Notes under the pieces: generated by a model
Databases searched by the model: none
Told to the model about the DNA's origin: nothing
What the model saw: only the letters and a program-made list of their open reading frames with translations
Part shown: in pieces, positions 51,581 to 64,000 of the stretch
How positions within the stretch are numbered: position 1 is the stretch's first letter
Layout of the letters: each line of letters begins with the position of its first letter
Position numbers and translations under genes: made by a program
Origin: Roseovarius sp. SCSIO 43702
GTDB lineage: Bacteria > Pseudomonadota > Alphaproteobacteria > Rhodobacterales > Rhodobacteraceae
Direction of reading: 5' to 3'
DNA length: 64,000 nucleotides
NCBI RefSeq assembly: GCF_019599045.1
Contig: NZ_CP080623.1
Location: 2,316,501 to 2,380,500, forward strand

Positions 51581-52885
51581 CTACCACCCCGCGAATTCCG
51601 CGAGCTTCGCGTCGTCCACCCGGCCCTCCGCCGCATCGCGGATCGCCTGCCCGATGATCTCGACGCCCTCGCGCGCCTCCGCCTCGCTCAGCGTCAGGGG
51701 CGGCGTCAGTTCGAGCACGTTCGACGACATGCCCACATAGTAGAAGACCGCCCCGAGCTCCCAGGCGCGATAGACCGTCTTGCGCGCCAGGTTCGCCGCC
51801 GGCGTCTTCTGCGCATCCTCGATCAGCTCGACACCGATGGCGAGGCCGCGGCCCCGCACGTCGCCGATCCGGTCGAGGTCGAGCGCGCGCAGCCCCTCCA
51901 TCATCGCCGCGCCCACGTCGCGCGCATGATCGGCCAGCGCCTCCCGTCGCATCGTGTCGAGAACCGCCTTCGCCGCGCTGGCACAGACCGGGTTGCCATG
52001 CAGCGTCTGCATCGAGAAGGATTGCGCGAAATCCAGCACCCGCGCCGGTCCCACCACCGCCGAGACGGGAAGACCGCCGCCCAGCCCCTTGCCGAACACC
52101 ACGAGGTCGGGCGCGATCCCTTCATGCTCGAAGCAATGCATCATGCCGGTCCGCGCAAGGCCCACCTTCACCTCGTCGCAGACCGTGAGGATGCCGAACT
52201 CCGCGCAAAGCGCGGCCAGCTTCCGCAGGAACCCCTCGGGCGGCACGATGAGGCCACCATCCGCCTGGATCGGCTCGATGAAGAAGGCGGCCACCTCGCG
52301 ACCGGGCACCTCGCCCTCGAGCAGGGCGCGGACATGCGCCAGGATCGCCTCCCCGGTCGCGTCGCCCTCGTAGGGACGATAGGGATCGGGATAGGGCACC
52401 AGCGTCAGGCCCGCCGATTTCGTCACGCCCTCCTGCGCGGAATGACCCGAGATCTCCATCGAGCCCTGCGTGCCGCCGTGATAGGCGCCGTGAAATGCCA
52501 TGATCCGCTCGCGCCCCGTGGCGGCCCGCACCGCGCGCATCGCGGTCTCGTTCGCGTCCGACCCCGAATGACCGAGCCAGACCCGCCGCTCGCCCTCTCC
52601 CGGCGTGATCTCGAGCAGCGTCTCGGCCAGCGCCACGGCCGGCGCGTTCGTCGTCGACAGAAGCGTCGCCCCGGCCTGCGAGGACAACGCGCCCGCCACC
52701 GCCTCCCGGATCGCCGGATGCGCGTAGCCAAGGCTCGCCGCGCCCCACCCCGCCGAGAGGTCCAGAAGGCGCCGCCCGCCCTCCTCGATCAGGTGCGCCC
52801 CCTCCCCGCCGACAAGCGCCACCGGAAAGAACCGCAGCTTCTCCAGCCCCGAGATGACGGCCCGGTCCCGATCATAGAGCGCCAT
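51581..52885 (-). CDS. class III aminotransferase
   Basis: 434 residues, PLP fold type I. LSAGWGAASLGYAHPAI, GHSGSDANETAMRAVRAATG, FHGAYHGG, CDEVKVGLARTG and Schiff-base Lys in VFGKGLGGGLPVSAVVG. Related to GabT, ornithine and dialkylglycine enzymes. Last gene of the Liv-type transport operon, two bases after the cysteine hydrolase. Donor substrate not known; it could process the amine freed by the upstream hydrolases. Confidence 0.88.
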   Translation of the reverse strand: MALYDRDRAVISGLEKLRFFPVALVGGEGAHLIEEGGRRLLDLSAGWGAASLGYAHPAIREAVAGALSSQAGATLLSTTNAPAVALAETLLEITPGEGERRVWLGHSGSDANETAMRAVRAATGRERIMAFHGAYHGGTQGSMEISGHSAQEGVTKSAGLTLVPYPDPYRPYEGDATGEAILAHVRALLEGEVPGREVAAFFIEPIQADGGLIVPPEGFLRKLAALCAEFGILTVCDEVKVGLARTGMMHCFEHEGIAPDLVVFGKGLGGGLPVSAVVGPARVLDFAQSFSMQTLHGNPVCASAAKAVLDTMRREALADHARDVGAAMMEGLRALDLDRIGDVRGRGLAIGVELIEDAQKTPAANLARKTVYRAWELGAVFYYVGMSSNVLELTPPLTLSEAEAREGVEIIGQAIRDAAEGRVDDAKLAEFAGW

Positions 52886-52887
52886 GG

Positions 52888-53526
52888 TCACGCGTCCTTC
52901 AATTCCCGGATCAACTCGTCGCTCGTCATCTGCCGGCAATAGCCCCTGATCGTTCGCAGCGAGTTGTCGTGCCGCTCCTGGCTGTAGGTGAGGCACGCAT
53001 CCGTGACCTGCGTGACGAGATAGCCCAGGTCGCAGGCATCGCGGATCGCGCTTTCGACGCACTGGTCGGTGATGAGCCCGCTGATGATCACCTGCTTCAC
53101 CCCGAGATTGCGCAGGATGTAGTCGATATGGGTCGAGACGAAGACCGAGGACGAGGATTTCGGCAGGACGATCTCGTCGCCCTCCGGCGCGATCTGGTCG
53201 ATGACCTTGCCGTCCCACGATCCTTTCGGCACGTTGAACCCGGTGATCTTGTAGTCGAGGCTCCGGTCGCGCCCGTCGAGCGTCAGGCTCTCGATGCAGG
53301 TATACATCACCTCCACGCCCGCCTCGCGACAGGCCGCCTGGATGCGCTGCATCGCCGGGATCACGTCGCCCTCCAGCCGCTCGAAATACCACTCGTAGTC
53401 CTTGAACTCCTCCGGGCTCATGTCCTTGAACTCGGCCCCCTCGCGGTGGGCGCTGAAATTCTGGACATCCACGAAAAGAAGCGCGGCCTCGGACGGGTTG
53501 ATGGGCACATCGCGGGTCAGTTTCAT
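52888..53526 (-). CDS. cysteine hydrolase, isochorismatase-like family
   Basis: 212 residues. Catalytic triad candidates: Asp in LLFVDVQNFSAH, Lys in IVLPKSSSSVF and Cys in LITDQCVESAIRDA. The family cleaves amides such as carbamoyl-sarcosine, nicotinamide, ureides or biuret. Cytoplasmic. Overlaps the N-formylglutamate-type gene by ATGA, so the two hydrolases are produced together. Confidence 0.88.
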   Translation of the reverse strand: MKLTRDVPINPSEAALLFVDVQNFSAHREGAEFKDMSPEEFKDYEWYFERLEGDVIPAMQRIQAACREAGVEVMYTCIESLTLDGRDRSLDYKITGFNVPKGSWDGKVIDQIAPEGDEIVLPKSSSSVFVSTHIDYILRNLGVKQVIISGLITDQCVESAIRDACDLGYLVTQVTDACLTYSQERHDNSLRTIRGYCRQMTSDELIRELKDA

Positions 53527-54290
53527 GTCTGCGTCTCCATGACTTCGGTGATGATCCGGGCAAGGCGGTCCGCCCAGAGGGCCTCGCCCTCCTCGTCCGC
53601 GATCAGGTCGTTGCGTATCTCGATCAGGCTGTGCGCGACACCCCGCGCCTCGCCGTGACGCGGCACGAACCAGTCCGAGGCATCCTCGATCTGGTAGGGC
53701 TCGTTGAGCCCGATGGTCAGGTCCGGCGCCAGCGCCCGCAGCGCCTCGGCGAGGGCGGGCGAGGTCGTCGAGTCATGCCGGAAGAGGAAGCCCACGTCCC
53801 AGGCCCGCGCCTCGCCCGCCCAGACCGGGGTGAAGCTGTGGATCGCGAAGGCCGCCTTGCGGGGCGCGGCCTCGAACAGGCGCTCCACCTCGGCGTGAAA
53901 GGGACGGAAGATCTCGGTCTCGCGCGCGGACCGCGCCGCGGCGTCGAGGCTCCGGTTGCCCGGCACCGCCACCCCGTCGCTCATCTCGGGCATCGCGTCG
54001 GGCGCCTCGGGCGGGCGGTTGCAGTCGATGACGAGGCGGCTGTAGGGCTGGATCACCAGCGGTGCCCCCAGGGCGTCGGCCAGCCGACGCGCCACGCCCG
54101 CCGCGCCGATATCCCAGCCGACATGCTTGTCGATATCGCCGGGACACAGGCCCAGGTCGCCCAGCGCGCGCGGAATCTCCTGCCCCCCGTGCTCGCAGAT
54201 CAGCAGGACAGCGGACCGGCTGTCGCCGTTCACCGTCTCGAACGGGGCCGGATCCTCCGGCCCCAGAAGCGTTGCCTTCAGCTTGCCCAC
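53523..54290 (-). CDS. N-formylglutamate amidohydrolase family protein
   Basis: 255 residues. Family segments LLICEHGGQEIP, DKHVGWDIGAAGVARRLAD, YSRLVIDCNRPP and FAIHSFTPVW hold likely zinc ligands (His/Glu). HutG-type enzymes deformylate N-formylglutamate, but no histidine-degradation genes are here. A different N-acylated amino acid is therefore plausible. Start is GTG 54290. Confidence 0.85.
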   Translation of the reverse strand: MGKLKATLLGPEDPAPFETVNGDSRSAVLLICEHGGQEIPRALGDLGLCPGDIDKHVGWDIGAAGVARRLADALGAPLVIQPYSRLVIDCNRPPEAPDAMPEMSDGVAVPGNRSLDAAARSARETEIFRPFHAEVERLFEAAPRKAAFAIHSFTPVWAGEARAWDVGFLFRHDSTTSPALAEALRALAPDLTIGLNEPYQIEDASDWFVPRHGEARGVAHSLIEIRNDLIADEEGEALWADRLARIITEVMETQT

Positions 54291-54300
54291 GCCTGCCCCC

Positions 54301-55194
54301 TCACACCTTCACCGCGCCCAGGACGCGCGACGGGATCAGCCCGTTGGGCCGGATGAGCAGGATCAGCACCACGAGGCCCAGCCCGATCGGATCGCGGAAT
54401 TCCTGCATCTCCTGCGGCAGGAACGCCGCCAGGTAGACCTCGATGAACCCGAGGGCAAAGCCCCCCGCCACCGCGCCCCGCAGGCTTCCGAGCCCGCCCA
54501 GGATCGCGGCGATGAACGCCTTGAGAACCGGCGTGAACCCCATCAGCGGATCGACCGAGGCGCGCTGGCTCACCCAGAGCACCGCGGCCACGCCCGCCAG
54601 CAGACCGGAGAGCGCGAAGGCCCCCGCGATCACCGTGTTGGCCCGGATCCCCATGAGACGCGCCACCGCGAAATCCTCGGCCGCCGCGCGCATCGCGATG
54701 CCGGTCTTCTGCTTGTTCATGAACCGGTCGAGAAAGATCAGCATGACCACCGTCGCCACGATCGCCACGATCTTGTTCACCCCGATGACGAAGCCGCCCA
54801 CCCGCACGCTGTCCGACAGGAAATCGGGCAGGAGCACGGCCTGCGAACGCGCCGAAATGAGGTTCTGGAAAAGCACCTGGAGGATCATCGCCACCGCGAA
54901 GGAGGTGATGAGCATCGTCGCCCCCGACGCGTTGCGCACGGGCCGGAAGGCGATCCGCTCCATCGCCACCGCCGCCACCATCGCGGCGAGGATCGCCAGG
55001 GGCACCGACACCGCGAAGGGAAGCCCCGCCGCGCCCGCATACATCAGCGTGTAGCCCGAGATCGTCATCAGCTCGCCATGGGCGAAGTTGATGAGCCCCA
55101 TGATCGAGAAGACCACCGCGAGGCCCAGCGCGAGAAGCGCGTAGGTGCCGCCCAGCGCCAGCGCGTTCGTCGTCTGCTGCAAGAATAGATCCAT
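54301..55194 (-). CDS. branched-chain/polar amino-acid ABC permease, LivH type
   Basis: 297 residues, about eight transmembrane helices. ALGGTYALLALGLAVVFSIMGLINFAHGE is the LivH opening (key part GLINFAHGE). Also AAAEDFAVARLMGI, the coupling loop. Start at ATG 55194, overlapping the LivF stop by one base. With LivMG, LivF and the binding protein it forms a complete HAAT importer. Confidence 0.92.
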   Translation of the reverse strand: MDLFLQQTTNALALGGTYALLALGLAVVFSIMGLINFAHGELMTISGYTLMYAGAAGLPFAVSVPLAILAAMVAAVAMERIAFRPVRNASGATMLITSFAVAMILQVLFQNLISARSQAVLLPDFLSDSVRVGGFVIGVNKIVAIVATVVMLIFLDRFMNKQKTGIAMRAAAEDFAVARLMGIRANTVIAGAFALSGLLAGVAAVLWVSQRASVDPLMGFTPVLKAFIAAILGGLGSLRGAVAGGFALGFIEVYLAAFLPQEMQEFRDPIGLGLVVLILLIRPNGLIPSRVLGAVKV

Positions 55195-55907
55195 CACTCC
55201 GCTCCCAGATAGGCCGCCTGCAAATCGTCGGCAGCGGCCAGCTCCCGCGCCGTTCCCCGCGCGGTGATCTTGCCTCCCGACAGGACATAGCCGCGATCCG
55301 CGACCTCGAGCGCCATGCTCACGTTCTGCTCCACCACCACGAGCGTCACGCCCTGCTCGCGCAGGCGCGCGATCAGCTCGAAGACCTGGCTCACGATCTT
55401 CGGCGCAAGGCCCAGCGACGGCTCGTCCAGCAGCAGAAGCCGCGGCCCGCTCATCAGCGCGCGCCCCACGGCCAGCATCTGCTGTTGTCCACCCGAGAGC
55501 GTGCCGGCGAATTGCGTGCGCCGCTCCTTGAGGATGGGGAAAAGCTCGTAGACCCGCTCCCACGCCGCCGCCACCTGGTCCCGCTCGGTGATGCCATAGG
55601 CGCCCATCCGCAGGTTCTCCTCGACCGTCAGCGTGCCGAAGACGCGGCGCCCCTCGGGCGACAGGGTCATGCCCATCGGCGCGAAGCGCTCGGGCGCGTG
55701 GTGGGTGATGTCCTCGCCGTCGAAGACGACCCGCCCTGCCGCGACCGGGACGAGGCCCACCAGTGCGTTGAGCGTCGAGGACTTCCCGGCGCCGTTGGCG
55801 CCGAGAAGCGTGACGATCTCGCCCTCCTCGATCTCGAAATCTATCCCGCGCACCGCTTCCACGGCGCCATAGCGGACTTCCAGACCTGAAACCGAGAGAA
55901 GCGACAT
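55194..55907 (-). CDS. branched-chain/polar amino-acid ABC ATPase, LivF type
   Basis: 237 residues. Walker A LLGANGAGKSST, signature LSGGQQQMLAVGRAL, Walker B LLLLDEPSLGLAP, switch His absent from the usual place and replaced by Gln/Asn in VVVEQNVS, as is normal for LivF. Start at ATG 55907 after GAGGAAAGGGCG. Follows the binding protein gene by 13 bases. Confidence 0.93.
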   Translation of the reverse strand: MSLLSVSGLEVRYGAVEAVRGIDFEIEEGEIVTLLGANGAGKSSTLNALVGLVPVAAGRVVFDGEDITHHAPERFAPMGMTLSPEGRRVFGTLTVEENLRMGAYGITERDQVAAAWERVYELFPILKERRTQFAGTLSGGQQQMLAVGRALMSGPRLLLLDEPSLGLAPKIVSQVFELIARLREQGVTLVVVEQNVSMALEVADRGYVLSGGKITARGTARELAAADDLQAAYLGAE

Positions 55908-55920
55908 CGCCCTTTCCTCC

Positions 55921-57075
55921 TCACTGCATCCGCGGCGCGGGGATGAGATCGGGATCGGGCGTGGGCTGGGCCACCAGCTCGCGCTCCCCATCCTTGACCC
56001 GGATGATCGAGACCTGCCGCACCGGCATTCCGTTTGTGCCCTTGTAGGTTATCAGCCCCGTGGCACCCTGCACGTTCTCGAGTTCTGCCATGGCGTCGCG
56101 GATATCCTTGGGATCGGTCGATCCTTCGGCCGCGAGAACCGCCGCCTCGATCACCTTGATGAGGTCATAGCCCACCGCGCTGTAGATCGTTTCGGGCGCT
56201 TCACCGTATTTGGCCTCATAGGCCTGATCGAACGCCTCCAGCGCACTGCCCGGTGTTGCGTGACCCGCCGTGGTGAAGACGACACCCTCTCCCACATCGC
56301 CCAGCGAAAAGGTCGTCGGGCTGTCGATCCCGTCGGACCCGATGATCTGGCTCTCCACGCCCGCCGCGCGCAGCGCCTTCAGCAACGAGGGGAAATCCGG
56401 CTCGTAGGCCGAGGTCATGACCACATCGGGTTGCGGGTCCTGCGACGCGATCGTGGTGGCGATGGCCGAAAAATCCTGCTGGCCGATCGTGTTCGTGGAA
56501 CGTCCCACGACCTCGCCGCCGAGCTTCTCGAAGACATCCGCGAAATAGAGCGGCATGGTCGTGTATTGCGTGTCGGGCGAATAGACGATCCACGCCGTTT
56601 CGTAGCCTTGCTCGCGTGCCCATTCGGCCGAAACCGTGGCCTGCACGTTGTCGCCGGGGAAGTTCGAGAACATGAACTCTCCACCCACTTCGGGCAGCGT
56701 CGGAGACGACGCCACCGTCGAAATCGCAGGGATGCCCGCGCTGCTGACCACTCCGACTGCGGCAAGCGACGGATCGGAGTCACCCGGCAGCACGATCACC
56801 GACACGCCAGCATCGGCCAACTCCTGCGCCGCGATCGAGGTCTGCGCCGCGTCCGAGCGCACGTCCTTTTCGATCAGTTCGATCTTGGTCGTGCCGCCGA
56901 TACCGCCGGCCTCGTTGATCTCTTCGACGGCGAGTTTCATGCCCTTCATCGTCGGCGCATCGGCATAGGCAAGCGATCCTGTTTGCGCAGTGGCGGTGCC
57001 GATCTGCAATGTCTCGGCCACCGCCGGCAGCGCCATGGCCGCCGCAAGGCCGGTTGAAATGATCAGATGTTTCAT
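55921..57075 (-). CDS. branched-chain/polar amino-acid ABC binding protein (Peripla_BP_6)
   Basis: 384 residues. Signal peptide MKHLIISTGLAAAMALPAVA, mature protein begins ETLQIGTATAQTGSLAYADA. Type I binding fold: VIVLPGDSDPSLAAVGVVSSAGIPAI and FSNFPGDNVQATVSAEWAREQG (parts). Acts in the periplasm as the capture component for the adjacent LivH/LivMG/LivF importer. Ligand not deducible; the HAAT family takes amino acids, amides and urea. Confidence 0.9.
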   Translation of the reverse strand: MKHLIISTGLAAAMALPAVAETLQIGTATAQTGSLAYADAPTMKGMKLAVEEINEAGGIGGTTKIELIEKDVRSDAAQTSIAAQELADAGVSVIVLPGDSDPSLAAVGVVSSAGIPAISTVASSPTLPEVGGEFMFSNFPGDNVQATVSAEWAREQGYETAWIVYSPDTQYTTMPLYFADVFEKLGGEVVGRSTNTIGQQDFSAIATTIASQDPQPDVVMTSAYEPDFPSLLKALRAAGVESQIIGSDGIDSPTTFSLGDVGEGVVFTTAGHATPGSALEAFDQAYEAKYGEAPETIYSAVGYDLIKVIEAAVLAAEGSTDPKDIRDAMAELENVQGATGLITYKGTNGMPVRQVSIIRVKDGERELVAQPTPDPDLIPAPRMQ

Positions 57076-57118: not shown

Positions 57119-58903
57119 TCACTGGTCCCTGCCCGGCCCCAGGTAGGCTTCGATCACCGCCGGGTTCCGGCGTATCTCGGCGGGCGTGCCCTCGGCGATC
57201 AGGTGGCCCTCGTTCAGCACCGCGATCCGGTCGCAAAGCTGGTTGATGAGATGCAGGTCGTGATCCACCAGCAGGATGCCGATCCCGAAATCCCGCGTCA
57301 GTCCGCGCAACTGCTCCATCAGCGCGGCGGTCTCCTCGGCGTTCATGCCCGCCGCCGGCTCGTCGAGGAACAGGATCGACGGCTCGCAGGCCAGGGCACG
57401 GGCGATCTCGACCCGGCGCTGGTCCCCGTAGGACAGCGTGCCCGCATCCTCCGCCGCCTTCGCCTCGAGGCCCATCCGCGCGATCGCCGACTGCGCGCGC
57501 GCCTGCGCATCGCGCCCGCCCTTCGTCGAGAGCGCCGCCACCAGCACGTTCTGGTAGACGCTGAGCGTCGAGAACAGCCGGATGTTCTGGAATGTCCGCG
57601 CGATCCCGCGATCCGCGACCTGCGGCGAGCTCAGCCCGGTCAGGTCCTCGCCCCCGCGCCGCACCCGCCCCTCCGAGGGCGTCAGGATGCCCGAGAGCAT
57701 GTTGAGATAGGTGGTCTTGCCCGACCCGTTCGGCCCGATGAGCCCGACGATCTCGCCCGGCTCGATCGAAAGCGACACGTCGTCGACCGCCGTCAGCCCG
57801 CCGAACCGCATCGTAAGGTTCTCCGCGACGAGGCGGCTCTCCTCCTCGACCTCGCGCTCCGAGGGCGGCGCGGCGGCGGTGTCGGGCGTCCTGGGAAACA
57901 GGCGCTCTTCCCATTCCTTCAGCCCGGCCAGCCCGTCTGCCTTGCGGAACATCGCGATGAGGATGATGAGACCGATCCCGATCTGCGCCGTGCCGAGGAC
58001 CGGCGGCATCTCGAGGCCGCCGATGCTGAACCCGCTTTCCAGCCGCCGCAGAAGCTCGGTGACGAGCGTGATGACCACCGCGCCGGTGACGGCCCCCGTG
58101 ACCGTGCTCATGCCGCCCACGATAAGCATCGCCAGAAGCAGGAAGGTATCGGCGAAATAGAACTTCTTCGCGCTGAACGCGCCCAGGAAATGCGCGATGA
58201 GCGCCCCGGCCAACGCCATCACCGCCGCGCTCAGCACCCAGGCGATCAGCCGCTCGCGCCGGATGCGCACGCCGACCGCCCCGGCCGAGATCGCGTCCTC
58301 CCGCCCCGCCCGCAGCCGCAGGCCCGAGACCGAATCGCGGTAGAGCCGCGCCACGATCAGAGCGAGGATACATCCGATCGCGGCGGTCCAGAGCCCGGTC
58401 TCGCGCGGCACGCCGAAGAAGGATTGCGCGCCCCGCGTCACGTCGCGCCAGCCGATGATGACCCCGTGCACGATGATCAGAAGACCCAGCGTCGCGATCA
58501 CCGCCGCCGACCCCTCGAGCCGCCCGATCGCCAGCCCGATGACCAGCGCCACCAGCGCGGTGAACACCACCGCCACCGCCGTCGCCGACACGAGGTCGAG
58601 CTGCGTGGTGGCCAGCCACTCCGGCAGCTTGGGCAGCGTCGCGGTCTTGAGCGGCACCGGCAGCGTCAGGATCGACGCCGCATAGGCCCCGATCCCCATG
58701 AACGCCACGTGCCCGAAGCTCAGGATGCCGCTGTTGCCGGTATAGATCCCGATGCCCACGACGCCGATGAGCGATATGAAGAAGACCGTGAGGATGCGCT
58801 CCGTCGCCACGCCCATCGCCTGCGCGAGGAACACCGCCGCCACCGTCAGGACGACGATGGCCAGAACCGATGCCAGGATGTGCAGACGTGGCGAAACGAT
58901 CAT
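57119..58903 (-). CDS. LivM-LivG fusion: ABC permease joined to ATPase
   Basis: 594 residues. Residues 1-330 are a LivM permease with about nine helices (GVVGIGIYTGNSGILSFGHVAFMGIGAYAA, in part; coupling loop AGREDAISAGAVGV). Residues 360-594 are a LivG ATPase with LIGPNGSGKTTYLNML, GIARTFQNIRLF, LSYGDQRRVEIARAL and LFLDEPAAGMN. Separate genes are the norm, although such fusions do occur. Start at ATG 58903 after GGGAGGGGGCGCTC. First gene of the seven-gene operon. Confidence 0.92.
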   Translation of the reverse strand: MIVSPRLHILASVLAIVVLTVAAVFLAQAMGVATERILTVFFISLIGVVGIGIYTGNSGILSFGHVAFMGIGAYAASILTLPVPLKTATLPKLPEWLATTQLDLVSATAVAVVFTALVALVIGLAIGRLEGSAAVIATLGLLIIVHGVIIGWRDVTRGAQSFFGVPRETGLWTAAIGCILALIVARLYRDSVSGLRLRAGREDAISAGAVGVRIRRERLIAWVLSAAVMALAGALIAHFLGAFSAKKFYFADTFLLLAMLIVGGMSTVTGAVTGAVVITLVTELLRRLESGFSIGGLEMPPVLGTAQIGIGLIILIAMFRKADGLAGLKEWEERLFPRTPDTAAAPPSEREVEEESRLVAENLTMRFGGLTAVDDVSLSIEPGEIVGLIGPNGSGKTTYLNMLSGILTPSEGRVRRGGEDLTGLSSPQVADRGIARTFQNIRLFSTLSVYQNVLVAALSTKGGRDAQARAQSAIARMGLEAKAAEDAGTLSYGDQRRVEIARALACEPSILFLDEPAAGMNAEETAALMEQLRGLTRDFGIGILLVDHDLHLINQLCDRIAVLNEGHLIAEGTPAEIRRNPAVIEAYLGPGRDQ

Positions 58904-59019: not shown

Positions 59020-59874
59020 ATGCAGGTTCTCGAACGTATCGCGGCCATCGAGCCCGACCTGACGGCGGCCGAGCGCAAGCTGCGCACCGCGCTCATGGCC
59101 GACTACCCGTTCGCGGGGCTCGAACCGATTCAGTCGCTCGCCGAGCGGACGCGGACCTCCTCGCCCACCATTTCGCGTTTCGTCACCAAGCTCGGATTCG
59201 GCGGCTACCAGGAGTTCCAGCGCCACCTCATAGAGGAGCTGAAGGAGGGCAACCGCTCGCCGCTCGACCTGCATGAGCGCGACCGGCAGGTGCAGGGCGA
59301 ATTCCTCGACGATTTCGTGGCCCGCGCCGGCGAGATCGTGCGCGCCTCCACGGCGGCCACGACCCACGCGCAATTCGCCCGCATGACCGACATGCTGGCC
59401 GATCCCAAGCGCGCGGTCCACGTGATCGGCGGGCGAATCAGCGACGCCATCGCGCTCTATCTCTCGCGCCACCTCCGCCAGATGCGCCGCGACGTGTTCC
59501 ACCTTCCCTCGGACCCCGAGATCTGGCCCGAATACCTGCTTCGGATGCGCCCCCGCGACATACTCTTCATCGTCGATTTCCGCCGCTACCAGCCAAGCCT
59601 CGCCGAACTGGCCGAGCGCGCCGCCGACGGGCGCGGCGCCCAGGTATTCCTCATGACCGACAAGTGGCTCTCGCCCGTTTCGCGCCATGCGCGCGAGGTG
59701 GTCGCGGTGCCCATCGACAGCGGCACGGTCTGGGACAGCTACTCGGGCGCCCTCACCCTCGTCGAGGCGATGGTGACGCGCATCGCCGAAGAGACATGGG
59801 ACGACACCCGCAAGCGCATCAAGTCATGGGACGCCATGCGCCTCGACACCAAGGAGACCCCGAATGATCCGTGA
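59020..59874 (+). CDS. MurR/RpiR family transcriptional regulator
   Basis: 284 residues. HTH_6 at about 1-77 (LAERTRTSSPTISRFVTKLGFGGYQEFQRHL, in part) and a SIS sugar/phosphate-binding domain at about 120-260 (VHVIGGRISDAIALYLSRHL; DILFIVDFRRY). SIS domains usually sense phosphorylated metabolites. That fits a pathway that contains a kinase. Overlaps the next gene by 11 bases. Confidence 0.93.
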   Translation: MQVLERIAAIEPDLTAAERKLRTALMADYPFAGLEPIQSLAERTRTSSPTISRFVTKLGFGGYQEFQRHLIEELKEGNRSPLDLHERDRQVQGEFLDDFVARAGEIVRASTAATTHAQFARMTDMLADPKRAVHVIGGRISDAIALYLSRHLRQMRRDVFHLPSDPEIWPEYLLRMRPRDILFIVDFRRYQPSLAELAERAADGRGAQVFLMTDKWLSPVSRHAREVVAVPIDSGTVWDSYSGALTLVEAMVTRIAEETWDDTRKRIKSWDAMRLDTKETPNDP

Positions 59875-61177
59875 TCCGCTGATTTTCGCCGCCACGTCCG
59901 ACCTCGCCGGCAAGATGCGCGGCAAGGCGTTCCCGGCCTCGCAACTCGAAAAGCGGCTCGAGCGCGGCATCGGCTGGGTGCCCACCAACGCGCTCATTAC
60001 CTGTTTCGACACCATCGCGGAATCGCCCTTCGGCTCGCTCGGGGATCTCGCGATCATGCCCGACCGCGACGCCTCCTACGAGATCGACTTCGAGGACGGC
60101 ACCCCGCCCGAGCGGTTCATCCTGGGCGACATCACCACGCCCGAGGGCGCGCCGTGGCTGGGCTGCACGCGCGGCGCGCTGCGCTCGGCGCTGGACCGTC
60201 TCCACCGGGTCACCGGGCTCACGCTGAACGCCGCCTTCGAGCATGAATTCCAGCTTCGGACGGACACCCCCGCCATGGGTGAGGCATTCACGCTCCAGGG
60301 CCTCTCCCGCCGCCGCGCCATGGGCGAGGCGCTCGTCGCGGCCATGGCACAGGCGGGCCTGGGCGAGGACACGTTCCTCAAGGAATACGGCGCCGAGCAG
60401 TTCGAGGTGACGGTGAAACCCGCCCCCGGCCTCGCCTCGGCCGACATCGCCGCGGTCCTGCGCGAGCTCATCCACTTCACCGCCCGTCGCCATGGCGAGA
60501 AGGCGACGCTCTCGCCCATCCTCGACCCCGCGGGCGTCGGCAACGGCGTGCATATCCACATGAGCTTCCTCGACGAATCGGGCGCCCCCGCCACCCATGA
60601 CGGGAACGGCCCCTGCGGCATGACCGAGATCACCGGACAGTTCATCGCGGGCATTCTCGCGCATCTCGACGCGATCATCGCCTTCGCCGCGCCCTCGGCC
60701 ATCTCCTACACCCGCCTCACCCCGCATCGCTGGAGCGCGGCCTTCAACAACCTCGGCTTCCGCGACCGCGAGGCGGCGGTGCGCATCTGCCCGGTGCAGG
60801 GCACCGACCCGGCCAGCATCGCGCGCCAGTACAATTTCGAGTTCCGCGCCGCCGACGCCACCGCCTCCCCGCATCTCGTGCTCGCGGCCGTGGTCCATGC
60901 GGGCTGCCAGGGGATCGAGGACGCGCTGCCCATGCCCGAGGCCACCGAGGAGGATCTCTCGCTTCTTTCCGAGAACGCGCTGGCCGAACGCGGGCTCGGG
61001 GCGCTGCCCTCCGACCTCGCGACCGCGCTCGACCGGCTCGAGGCCAGCGACACGGTGCGCGGCTGGTTCGCGGACGGTCTCGTCGATGTCTACCTCGCCC
61101 ACAAGCGCGGCGAGCTGGACCACGCGATGAGCCTTGACGAGGAGGCCCGCCTCGCGGCCTATGCCACCGTCTACTGA
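59864..61177 (+). CDS. glutamine synthetase family ligase (PuuA/GlnA3-like)
   Basis: 437 residues. GS catalytic features: EHEFQLR and EQFEVTVKP (metal Glu), GVGNGVHIHMSF (the His of HxH), SYTRLTPHRWSAAFNN and NFEFRAADATASPHL. It lacks adenylylation-type features and sits in a catabolic operon. It is therefore more likely a gamma-glutamylating ligase of an amine than biosynthetic glutamine synthetase. Coupled with the regulator gene. Confidence 0.88.
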   Translation: MIRDPLIFAATSDLAGKMRGKAFPASQLEKRLERGIGWVPTNALITCFDTIAESPFGSLGDLAIMPDRDASYEIDFEDGTPPERFILGDITTPEGAPWLGCTRGALRSALDRLHRVTGLTLNAAFEHEFQLRTDTPAMGEAFTLQGLSRRRAMGEALVAAMAQAGLGEDTFLKEYGAEQFEVTVKPAPGLASADIAAVLRELIHFTARRHGEKATLSPILDPAGVGNGVHIHMSFLDESGAPATHDGNGPCGMTEITGQFIAGILAHLDAIIAFAAPSAISYTRLTPHRWSAAFNNLGFRDREAAVRICPVQGTDPASIARQYNFEFRAADATASPHLVLAAVVHAGCQGIEDALPMPEATEEDLSLLSENALAERGLGALPSDLATALDRLEASDTVRGWFADGLVDVYLAHKRGELDHAMSLDEEARLAAYATVY

Positions 61178-61200
61178 CCCGCGCGATGCGAGAGGATTCG

Positions 61201-64000
61201 ATGATCGACTTTGACGCCACGCCCCCCGCGCTGTCCCTCGACGCGCTCGCCGACCTGGCGCAGCGGCATTTCGGGCTCTCGGGCGCGCTCACGCCCCTCG
61301 CCTCCGAGCGCGACCAGAACGCGCGCCTCGACACCGGCTCGGCCTCCTACGTGGTCAAGCTCGCCAACGCCGCCGAGGATCCCGCGCATCTCGAGATGCA
61401 GAACGCGGCGCTCGCGCATATCGAGGCATGCGGCATCACCGGCACGCCGCGCCTCGTGCCCACCCTCTCGGGCGCACCGATGGAAACCGTGTCGCACGAG
61501 GGGGCAAGCCACGCGCTCCGTGTCGTCACCTGGCTCTCCGGTCCGCTGCTCAGCGGCGCCCCCCGCAGCACGCCGCAACTGCGCAGCCTCGGCGCCTTCA
61601 TGGGCCGCCTCACCCGCGCGCTCCAGGGCTTCGGTCACAAGGCGGCGCACCGCCCCGACTTCGTGTGGTCGCTCGATCACGTCGCGCGCCTGCGCCCCTG
61701 GGCCGACGAGATCGCGGAGGCCGCCGACCGCGCCCGCGTCATCGCCCTCTTCGACCGCTACGAGGATCAGGTCGCCCCGCGCCTGCCCGCCCTGCGCGCC
61801 TCGGTCCTCCATCAGGACGCCAACGACAACAACGTGATCGTGGACGCGGACGATCCCGACCGCGTGACCGGCCTCATAGATTTCGGCGACATGGCCTTCG
61901 GTCGCACCGTGAACGAGCTCGCGATCACGCTGGCCTATGCCCTTCTCGACGCCGAAGACCTCTACACCGCGATGCGCGCCGTGATCGAGGGCTACGTGGC
62001 CGAGTTCCCCCTCACCGCCCCCGAGGCCGACGTGCTCTTCGATCTCATGCGGATGCGGCTCGTGGCCAGCGTCTGCATCTCCTCGCACCAGATCAAGGCG
62101 CATCCCGGGAACGACTACCTGCTCGTCTCGCAGAAACCCGCCTTCGCGCTGCTGGACAGGCTGGACCGGATTGACCCCGCCTTCATGACCGCGCTCTGCC
62201 GCAAGGCGGCGGGCCACGACGCGGTGCCGACCGCCCCCGCGATCCGGGCCGATCTCGCGGCGCGCCCCCCGGCTCCCCTCTGCCCGCCCTCGCTCAGGCG
62301 CGCGGCGCGCATGGCGCTCCTGATGGATGGCACCTATCCCGACATGCCCGCCTACTCCGACCGCGCCTTCGACGACTGGCTTGGCACCCACCGCCCCGAG
62401 TCGCTGCCCGACAACGTCCCCTTCTACGGCATGGGCCCCTATGGCGAGGTGCGCAGCGTCTACACGTCCGAGCAATTCGCCGACGCGGCCTCGCCCGAGC
62501 GGCGCACGCGGCACATGGGGATCGACGTCTTCGGCCCGGCGGGCACCCCCGTCCTTGCGCCGCTCGACGGCCGCGTCCGGCGCGCCACCTACAACGCCGA
62601 CCCGCTCGACTACGGCAATCTCCTGATCCTCGAACACGAAACCGCCGACGGCCTGCCCTTCTTCACCCTCTACGGCCACCTCGCCGGCGAGGGGCTGGCA
62701 ACCGAGGGCGCGACCGTCCGCGCCGGCGACACGATCGCGCGGTTCGGCGACTGGCACGAGAACGGCGGCTGGTCGCCGCACCTGCATTTCCAGGTCATGT
62801 CGACCATGCTCTCGCAATCCGACAACTTCTTCGGCGTGGGCCATGACAGCCATTGGGACATCTGGTCGGACATCTGCCTCGACCCGCTCCCGCTCCTCGG
62901 TCTCACGCCCGAAACCTTCACCGTCGATCCCAACCCGCCCGAGGCGCTGATGCGCCGCCGCGCCGATCACCTCAGCCCCGCGCTCTCGGTCTCCTACCGC
63001 AACAAGCTCAAGATCGTGCGCGGCCGCGGCCCCTGGCTCATCGACCACACCGGGCGGCACTTCCTCGACGCGGTGAACAACATCACCCATGTCGGCCACT
63101 GTCACCCGCATGTGGTGAACGCGCTCGCCGCGCAGGCCGCGACGCTCAACACCAACACCCGCTACCTGGGCGAGCCGATCCTCGACTATTCCGAACGCCT
63201 CGCCGCCAGGCTCCCCGAGGGGCTCGACACGCTCTTCTTCGTCAATTCCGGCTCCGAGGCGAACGAGCTTGCGCTGCGCATCGCGCGCACGGCGCTGGGG
63301 CGCAAGAACACCGTCGTGCTCGACTGGGCCTATCACGGCAACACCGGCGGCATGGTCGATGTCTCGCCTTACAAGTTCAAGCGCAAAGGCGGCTTCCCCA
63401 AGCCCGATTTCGTCGAGATCGCGGAGTTCCCCGACGCCTATCGCGGCACCCATCGCGGCATGACCCAGGAGACGGCGACCGCCTATGCCGCGGACGTGGC
63501 GCGCTGTCTCGACGACATCGAGGCCGCCACCGGCTCGGGCGCGGCGAGCTTCATCGCCGAATCGGTGTCCGGCGTGGGCGGCCAGGTCTTCTACCCGCCG
63601 GGCTATCTCGAGGCCGCCTACGCGCATGTGCGCGCCCGCGGCGGCGTCTGCATCGCCGACGAGGTGCAATGCGGCTTCGGACGCATGGGCGATGCCTTCT
63701 GGGCCTTCGAGACACAGGGCGTCACCCCCGATATCGTCGTGATGGGCAAACCCATCGGCAACGGCCACCCGCTCGCCGCCGTGGCGACGACACGCGCGCT
63801 GGCCGAGAAGTTCCGCACCGGCATGGAATATTTCAACTCCTTCGGCGGCAATCCCGTCTCGATGGCCGTGGGCATGGCCGTGCTCGACGTGATCGAGAGC
63901 GAAGACCTCCAGGCCCGCGCCAGGGCCACCGGCGATCACCTCATGGCGTGCTTCCGTGACCTCGCCACGCGGCACCCGCTCATCGGTGACGTGCGCGGGC
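61201..64000 (+). CDS. three-domain protein: APH-type kinase, M23 metallopeptidase, class III PLP phospholyase (partial)
   Basis: 933 codons are visible, with no stop before the window edge. Residues about 10-320 form an aminoglycoside-phosphotransferase-like kinase ([10 protein letters not shown] with His204, Asp206; DFGD at 227). Residues about 430-560 form an M23 peptidase with all zinc motifs: HxxxD (438-442), His493 in YGHL, and HLH at 527-529. Residues about 590 on form a class III PLP enzyme with [28 protein letters not shown] and Lys850 in [11 protein letters not shown]. The last domain resembles human ETNPPL/PHYKPL phospholyases, and the kinase resembles hydroxylysine kinase. No signal peptide, so the protein is cytoplasmic. 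Start at ATG 61201 after GCGAGAGGATTCG; an in-frame ATG at 61186 is possible. Confidence 0.88.

Follow-up and report, generated by a model that had tools for sequence, protein, structure and literature searches.

The fusion gene and its domains

The window analysed here is a 64,000-nt stretch of Roseovarius sp. SCSIO 43702 (NZ_CP080623.1, positions 2,316,501 to 2,380,500) and is part of a 3.6-Mb one-contig genome. At its right-hand end, a kinase-M23-phospholyase fusion gene occupies positions 61201..64000 on the + strand and runs 224 nt beyond the window. The next 224 bases complete a protein of 1012 codons, counted from an alternative ATG at 61186 (L005:11186-14224; L numbers denote the loci compared), or 1007 aa from 61201. 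The ATG at 61201 was favoured as the start because a ribosome-site-like GAGAGGA (61190-61196) lies four bases ahead of it. The alignments of 80 homologues left the start undecided, as they began at residue 5-6 in 31/80, earlier in 20, and later in 29. Residue numbers are counted from ATG 61186; those in the first-pass annotation, a model's reading of the same letters, equal these minus 5.

All three domains passed the Pfam gathering scores: APH (PF01636) with 85.1 bits (cut-off 23.2), Peptidase_M23 with 63.8 (28.7), and Aminotran_3 with 217.3 (30.5). The first-pass annotation had placed a kinase, an M23 peptidase, and a pyridoxal phosphate (PLP) enzyme in one polypeptide, and this was borne out. 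On the + strand, the APH-type kinase domain lies at 61225..62220 (residues 14-345) and the M23 zinc hydrolase domain (PF01551) at 62509..62802 (residues 442-539), with its HLH motif at 62779..62787 (residues 532-534; 527-529 in the earlier numbering). The class III PLP domain, of the phosphoethanolamine phospho-lyase type, starts at 63004 and fills the window to 64000 (63004..64000, residues 607-1012, end outside the window). Its PLP lysine, K855 (K850 earlier), is encoded at 63748..63750. The strand opposite the fusion gene (window 61171-63975, -) is open over 934 codons, and high-GC codon use was taken to be the cause.

Nearly the full length of the protein matched NCBIfam NF004799, a 1015-aa subfamily (PRK06148) that is named only 'hypothetical protein', and the 1188 bits obtained exceed the cut-off of 1128. 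Scored by itself, the part encoded within the window (937 residues) reached 1081.7 and remained under that cut-off. With NF004800 (PRK06149, 'aminotransferase', 972 aa), 705.3 bits were obtained against a cut-off of 973. Relatives are encoded in 264 stretches of genome contigs, the best 80 of which were kept for alignment. Given these relatives and the near end-to-end family match, the fusion is not a chance product. Full-length matches were found in 13/385 genomes of the class sample (the window's own genome counted), and, at E<=1e-150, 53 of the 292 order-sample genomes carried the fusion. To call the architecture unusual would therefore be wrong: it is neither rare nor new and belongs to a catalogued family.

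According to record titles, the carriers include Alpha- and Gammaproteobacteria, Burkholderiales, and metagenome-assembled genomes (MAGs) of Gemmatimonadota and Asgard archaea. The fusion gene was found in the Asgard MAGs L065 and L069, possibly as contamination, and in L065 a beta-keto acid cleavage enzyme is encoded near it (Pfam). No study of the PRK06148 family was recognised in the literature searched, a search with most subscription journals outside its reach; a Mycoplasma secretome study (PMC8249566) mentions PRK06148 once.

Kinase and phospho-lyase domains

The nearest solved relatives of the PLP domain, by sequence and fold, were human ETNPPL (6tor) and the Arthrobacter phospholyase A1RDF1 (5g4i), which outranked every listed aminotransferase in both comparisons. 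The whole-model fold search says little about the kinase and M23 parts; of these two, only the kinase was also folded separately. Human ETNPPL scored 443 bits against the window's PLP domain and 334 bits against an M23-less one. With K855 present in 81/81 aligned rows, the domain is predicted to be a PLP enzyme of the phospho-lyase type that eliminates phosphate, as the first-pass annotation had it.

For the kinase domain, the only PDB sequence match at E<=0.01 was the aminopropanol kinase 6ef6. Hydroxylysine kinase was absent from the match list of this domain, which excludes nothing. Residues K58, D211, N216, and D232 (HxDxxxxN and DFGD motifs) were invariant in the 79/79 rows with letters there. 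Across the 80 loci and the query, the marked kinase and PLP residues were invariant where present, H209 excepted (77 H, 2 Y).

Phospholyase-type proteins without the M23 domain were found in 18 genomes, where the kinase was fused to the lyase in 6 and encoded by an adjacent APH gene in 12, so that the pairing held in 18/18. Bacterial kinase/lyase fusions are said to have been mentioned by Veiga-da-Cunha in 2012. The window's own genome has, besides the fusion, an APH kinase gene next to a phospholyase-type gene, a pair that lacks M23 (L213 9106-12011; C1:3108500-3128400). M23-lyase proteins lacking the kinase occurred in three genomes (L146-L148), each of which also holds a full-length fusion copy. 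Loci L051, L073, L167, and L168, cut by contig or locus ends, were left out of the architecture counts, and L149-L154 repeat genomes of L099-L113. Because M23-less lyases pair with a kinase throughout and the genomes with kinase-less M23-lyases carry a full-length copy, the kinase-lyase pair is what these systems have in common, and M23 is the part that varies.

The pairing, together with the 6ef6, ETNPPL, and A1RDF1 matches, indirectly supports the earlier suggestion that kinase and phospholyase act on an amino alcohol. The fusion thus probably has kinase plus phospho-lyase activity, as judged from its relatives.

Conservation of the M23 site

The window protein keeps H443, D447, H498, H532, and H534, which we take to be the HxxxD, catalytic His, and HxH of M23 peptidases; the metal motifs are all intact, as had been noted at first pass. 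The best PDB sequence matches of the domain were M23 peptidases, among them 9gy1, zoocin A, DipM, and LytM. Among the 80 loci and the query, the five residues were lost only in two Albidovulum MAGs (L061, L063); L073 ends before the domain. Both Albidovulum proteins are full-length fusions in which H498, H532, and H534 are gone and a YK pair in the phospholyase domain is kept.

In a larger set of distinct proteins with the middle domain (16 repeats removed; the window's own protein and the near-identical pair L021 and L027 included), all five residues were kept in 122/129. The remaining seven were L061, L063, and five PRK06149 proteins, from Sinorhizobium, Pararhizobium, Rhodococcus, and two Streptomyces plasmids. 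The PRK06149 rows were sought on purpose and the sets came from best-of lists; 122/129 and the 18/18 above are therefore not population frequencies. The first-pass annotation had named routine loss of the zinc residues among homologues as speaking against its proposal. Such loss was not found in PRK06148 and was found in its sister family PRK06149 (5/5).

On pSymB of Sinorhizobium meliloti (L249 10004-17186), an intact-M23 PRK06148 lies approximately 1.2 kb from a dead-site PRK06149, with one binding-protein gene between them. The PRK06149 gene there follows hutC by 30 nt on the same strand. When the S. meliloti PRK06149 was used as the query in the class sample (E<=1e-150), 0/385 genomes matched, an empty result that is no proof of absence.

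In PLP-domain trees of 67 and 52 rows, all sampled M23-less proteins fell to the same side of a strongly supported branch (100/99, 52-row tree), PRK06149 was split off by another (100/100), and the intact-M23 label required three changes. The trees were rooted at the midpoint, the outgroup row of the 67-row tree being very long-branched, and gain and loss of M23 on its branch are not told apart by them. Co-variation of an intact M23 site with the YK pair (729-730) was considered and rejected as not significant, with only two independent pairs on supported branches. The pair was present in 122/122 intact-M23 proteins, 3/3 kinase-less M23-lyases, 0/18 M23-less genomes, and 0/5 PRK06149. Counter to a link, YK persists in L061 and L063 despite their dead site, and human ETNPPL has SPYKF without any M23.

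Gene neighbourhood

Upstream of the fusion on the + strand lie an RpiR/SIS regulator (59020..59874; Pfam) and a glutamine-synthetase-like (GS-like), gamma-glutamyl ligase-like gene (59864..61177; Pfam Gln-synt_C; GGputSyn 243.7 bits, below the cut-off of 650). Because the regulator and GS-like genes share 11 nt, and the GS-like stop is 23 nt ahead of ATG 61201, the three genes look like one operon.

The other genes of the cluster run divergently, on the - strand. An apparently fused branched-chain-type ATP-binding cassette (ABC) permease/ATPase (LivM-LivG; 57119..58903) was named by eye; a similar gene in Paracoccus seriniphilus is annotated as such a fusion, 'ATP-binding protein/permease'. 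An ABC substrate-binding protein of the Liv/amide type (55921..57075) matched 4gnr, 3td9, and the HAAT-family 4nqr in the PDB. A LivF-like ATPase (55194..55991, the true start probably inside the frame) and a LivH-like permease (54301..55188) were named by eye and from the P. seriniphilus annotation. An N-formylglutamate-amidohydrolase-like (FGase) gene (53523..54290; PF05013) and an isochorismatase-like cysteine hydrolase (52888..53526; PF00857; nearest solved 3kl2 and RutB) follow. The last gene (51581..52888) encodes a class III PLP enzyme which, by PDB comparison, is of the alpha-amino-epsilon-caprolactam or amino acid amide racemase type: 5m46 (alpha-amino-epsilon-caprolactam racemase) scored 540 bits, 6gio (amino acid amide racemase) 475, and the next different enzyme 277. 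The best NCBIfam models for this gene, all under cut-off, bear aminotransferase names.

All nine cluster genes were found, rearranged, in L033, L035, and L037. L006 has the window's set minus the racemase-type gene, which was not found in its flank. In P. seriniphilus the cluster is on a plasmid, its gene order different again. Of 32 other GS-like loci, 20 were fetched: FGase and isochorismatase genes were present in 20/20, and RpiR and a Liv-like transporter in 18/20 (exceptions L161 and L175). Fusions within these loci form a second clade, with 37-41% identity to the window's, and lie at varying places. FmdA was read by eye in L169 and L170, and by a scan in L162 only.

Proposed function

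We propose, with a probability of about 0.4, that the fusion is a cytoplasmic catabolic enzyme whose activities act in sequence on one imported substrate; we infer the reactions, their order, and the substrate. The neighbouring ABC transporter would import an amide of an amino alcohol, the amide partner possibly being gamma-glutamyl or aminoacyl. The M23 domain, as a small-molecule amidase, would release the amino alcohol, the kinase domain would phosphorylate its hydroxyl, and the PLP domain would eliminate phosphate and ammonia to give an aldehyde. Since the kinase uses ATP, a cytoplasmic location is presumed. The earlier suggestion of a conjugate from which M23 releases the amino alcohol agrees with the conservation of the site and the amide-rich neighbourhood, the substrate itself being conjectural; its variant with a muropeptide as the source found no support in this analysis. 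The full claim, that a cell-wall-peptidase fold serves here as a cytoplasmic amidase and a single polypeptide turns an amide-bound (gamma-glutamyl or aminoacyl) amino alcohol into aldehyde, ammonia, phosphate, and freed acid, is tentative and may well prove wrong.

In the order sample (n=292), 33 genomes had the GS-like gene, 53 the fusion, and 21 both, against 6.0 expected (hypergeometric 5e-10), a figure that ignores kinship among the genomes. The two genes were within 10 kb of each other in 10 of the 21. Besides that kinship, several observations weigh against the proposal. Fusion and GS-like gene were on different contigs in 11/21, and the fusion was not found at E<=1e-150 in 12/33 GS-like genomes; the GS-like cluster can therefore do without the fusion. 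The fusion has other neighbours in other lineages: in rhizobia these are an Lrp regulator and an amino-acid-binding protein, and in a Pelagibacteraceae genome (L080 7161-9972) they are genes for a nucleoside hydrolase, an Indigoidine_A-family protein, and a PfkB kinase (Pfam). Neither a dehydrogenase for a gamma-glutamyl amino alcohol nor an aldehyde dehydrogenase was seen among the window-cluster frames. The kinase-less M23-lyases of L146-L148 and the five PRK06149 relatives that do without a zinc site point the same way.

The rhizobial context also suits a different substrate, an amino-acid-like vicinal amino alcohol such as 5-hydroxylysine, which M23 would free from peptides and which would pass through 5-phosphohydroxylysine to 2-aminoadipate semialdehyde. 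This is the chemistry of human HYKK and PHYKPL. On Sinorhizobium, Pararhizobium, and Phyllobacterium plasmids, the gene is flanked by an Lrp/AsnC regulator on one side and an amino-acid ABC binding protein on the other, and in Paraburkholderia (L058) a family-3 amino-acid binding protein adjoins it; a hydroxylysine kinase and a phosphohydroxylysine lyase are named together in the title of one reference. These binding proteins may have other ligands, however, and the window's cluster has a Liv/amide-type transporter with no lysine-pathway gene seen there; this substrate appears unlikely.

M23 might instead separate kinase and lyase as a spacer with a structural or regulatory role, its zinc site retained for stability. 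The PRK06149 (5/5) and Albidovulum proteins, which retain the middle domain with the site lost, would agree with this, as would the M23-less kinase-lyase fusions in 6 genomes. A spacer would hardly explain why, besides the three ligand residues, H498 and H532 are kept too in 122/129 distinct proteins, those of Gemmatimonadota and Asgard MAGs among them, and we give it a low probability. That the PLP domain is an aminotransferase, with the kinase product transaminated rather than eliminated, could be argued from its class III fold, which is mostly that of aminotransferases, and from several plasmid records, where annotated copies of the fusion are called an 'aminotransferase class III-fold' enzyme; as both solved phospholyases came first by sequence and fold, above all aminotransferases listed, this is improbable. 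Cutting of cytoplasmic peptidoglycan fragments in wall recycling, suggested by the wall peptidases among the solved M23 relatives and by the MurR/RpiR annotation of the P. seriniphilus regulator, was rejected as very improbable, since the P. seriniphilus cluster carries no gene annotated for wall recycling and none was seen in the window's, and the relatives of kinase and lyase indicate amino alcohols.

If amide release, phosphorylation, and elimination do follow one another in the fusion, this would add a bacterial route for amino alcohols to those of ethanolamine ammonia-lyase and the gamma-glutamyl/dehydrogenase operon. With M23 as a metabolic amidase, a mainly cell-wall enzyme class would gain a second role in small-molecule catabolism. 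A catalogued, unexplained family, ranging from a Pelagibacteraceae genome to soil rhizobia, gains a functional prediction and a gene context, and the natural intact-site and lost-site versions close together in S. meliloti make the M23 question directly testable.

Comparison with known systems

PRK06148 proteins have the three domains, order, and near-whole length of the window protein, with no architectural difference. PRK06149 proteins share this layout; in 5/5 of them the M23 site residues and the YK pair at 729-730 are gone, whereas the window protein keeps both. Unlike the fusion, ETNPPL and A1RDF1, the best PLP-domain matches by sequence and fold, are too short (499 and 446 residues) to hold a kinase or an M23 domain as well. 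The system of the microcompartment 1-amino-2-propanol kinase 6ef6 resembles the fusion in that a phosphotransferase for an amino alcohol is accompanied by an aminotransferase-like enzyme (PMC6620236, PMC4207490). That system differs in having separate genes within a shell-protein locus, and the available passages name no M23; the same passages leave the microcompartment pathway open.

The closest parallel to the cluster is the ethanolamine gamma-glutamylation (eto) operon, whose core, in the passages available, is RpiR, an FGase-family enzyme, and a GS-like ligase (PMC10132767, PMC6529630). These three lie together in Phaeobacter MED193 and Chromohalobacter, as in the window. The window cluster differs from eto in having an ABC transporter, isochorismatase, racemase-type enzyme, and fusion instead; the tripartite ATP-independent periplasmic (TRAP) transporter EtoX and the two dehydrogenases of eto were not seen in the frames between 51.3 and 64 kb of the window or in the 6 kb downstream (partly by eye). 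The window's own genome has a separate eto-type set, with RpiR, FGase, TRAP-type DctP, and GS-like genes, at about 8900-15200 of L229 (C1:2953000-2972900), to which the window's RpiR, FGase, and GS-like proteins are 35, 42, and 28% identical. A relative, L233, has an eto-type operon of FGase, DctP, GS, and aldehyde dehydrogenase (Pfam) with RpiR (BLAST), and similar operons were found in L232, L235, L239, and L241 (BLAST and by eye). With the eto transporter and dehydrogenases absent and an eto-type set elsewhere in the genome, a plain eto operon was rejected for the window. Its cluster is a set parallel to eto, with another transporter and amide-type enzymes in the place of the dehydrogenases, and because of this parallel the simplest assumption for the substrate class would be an amide, perhaps gamma-glutamyl, of an amino alcohol, for which M23 would be the amidase.
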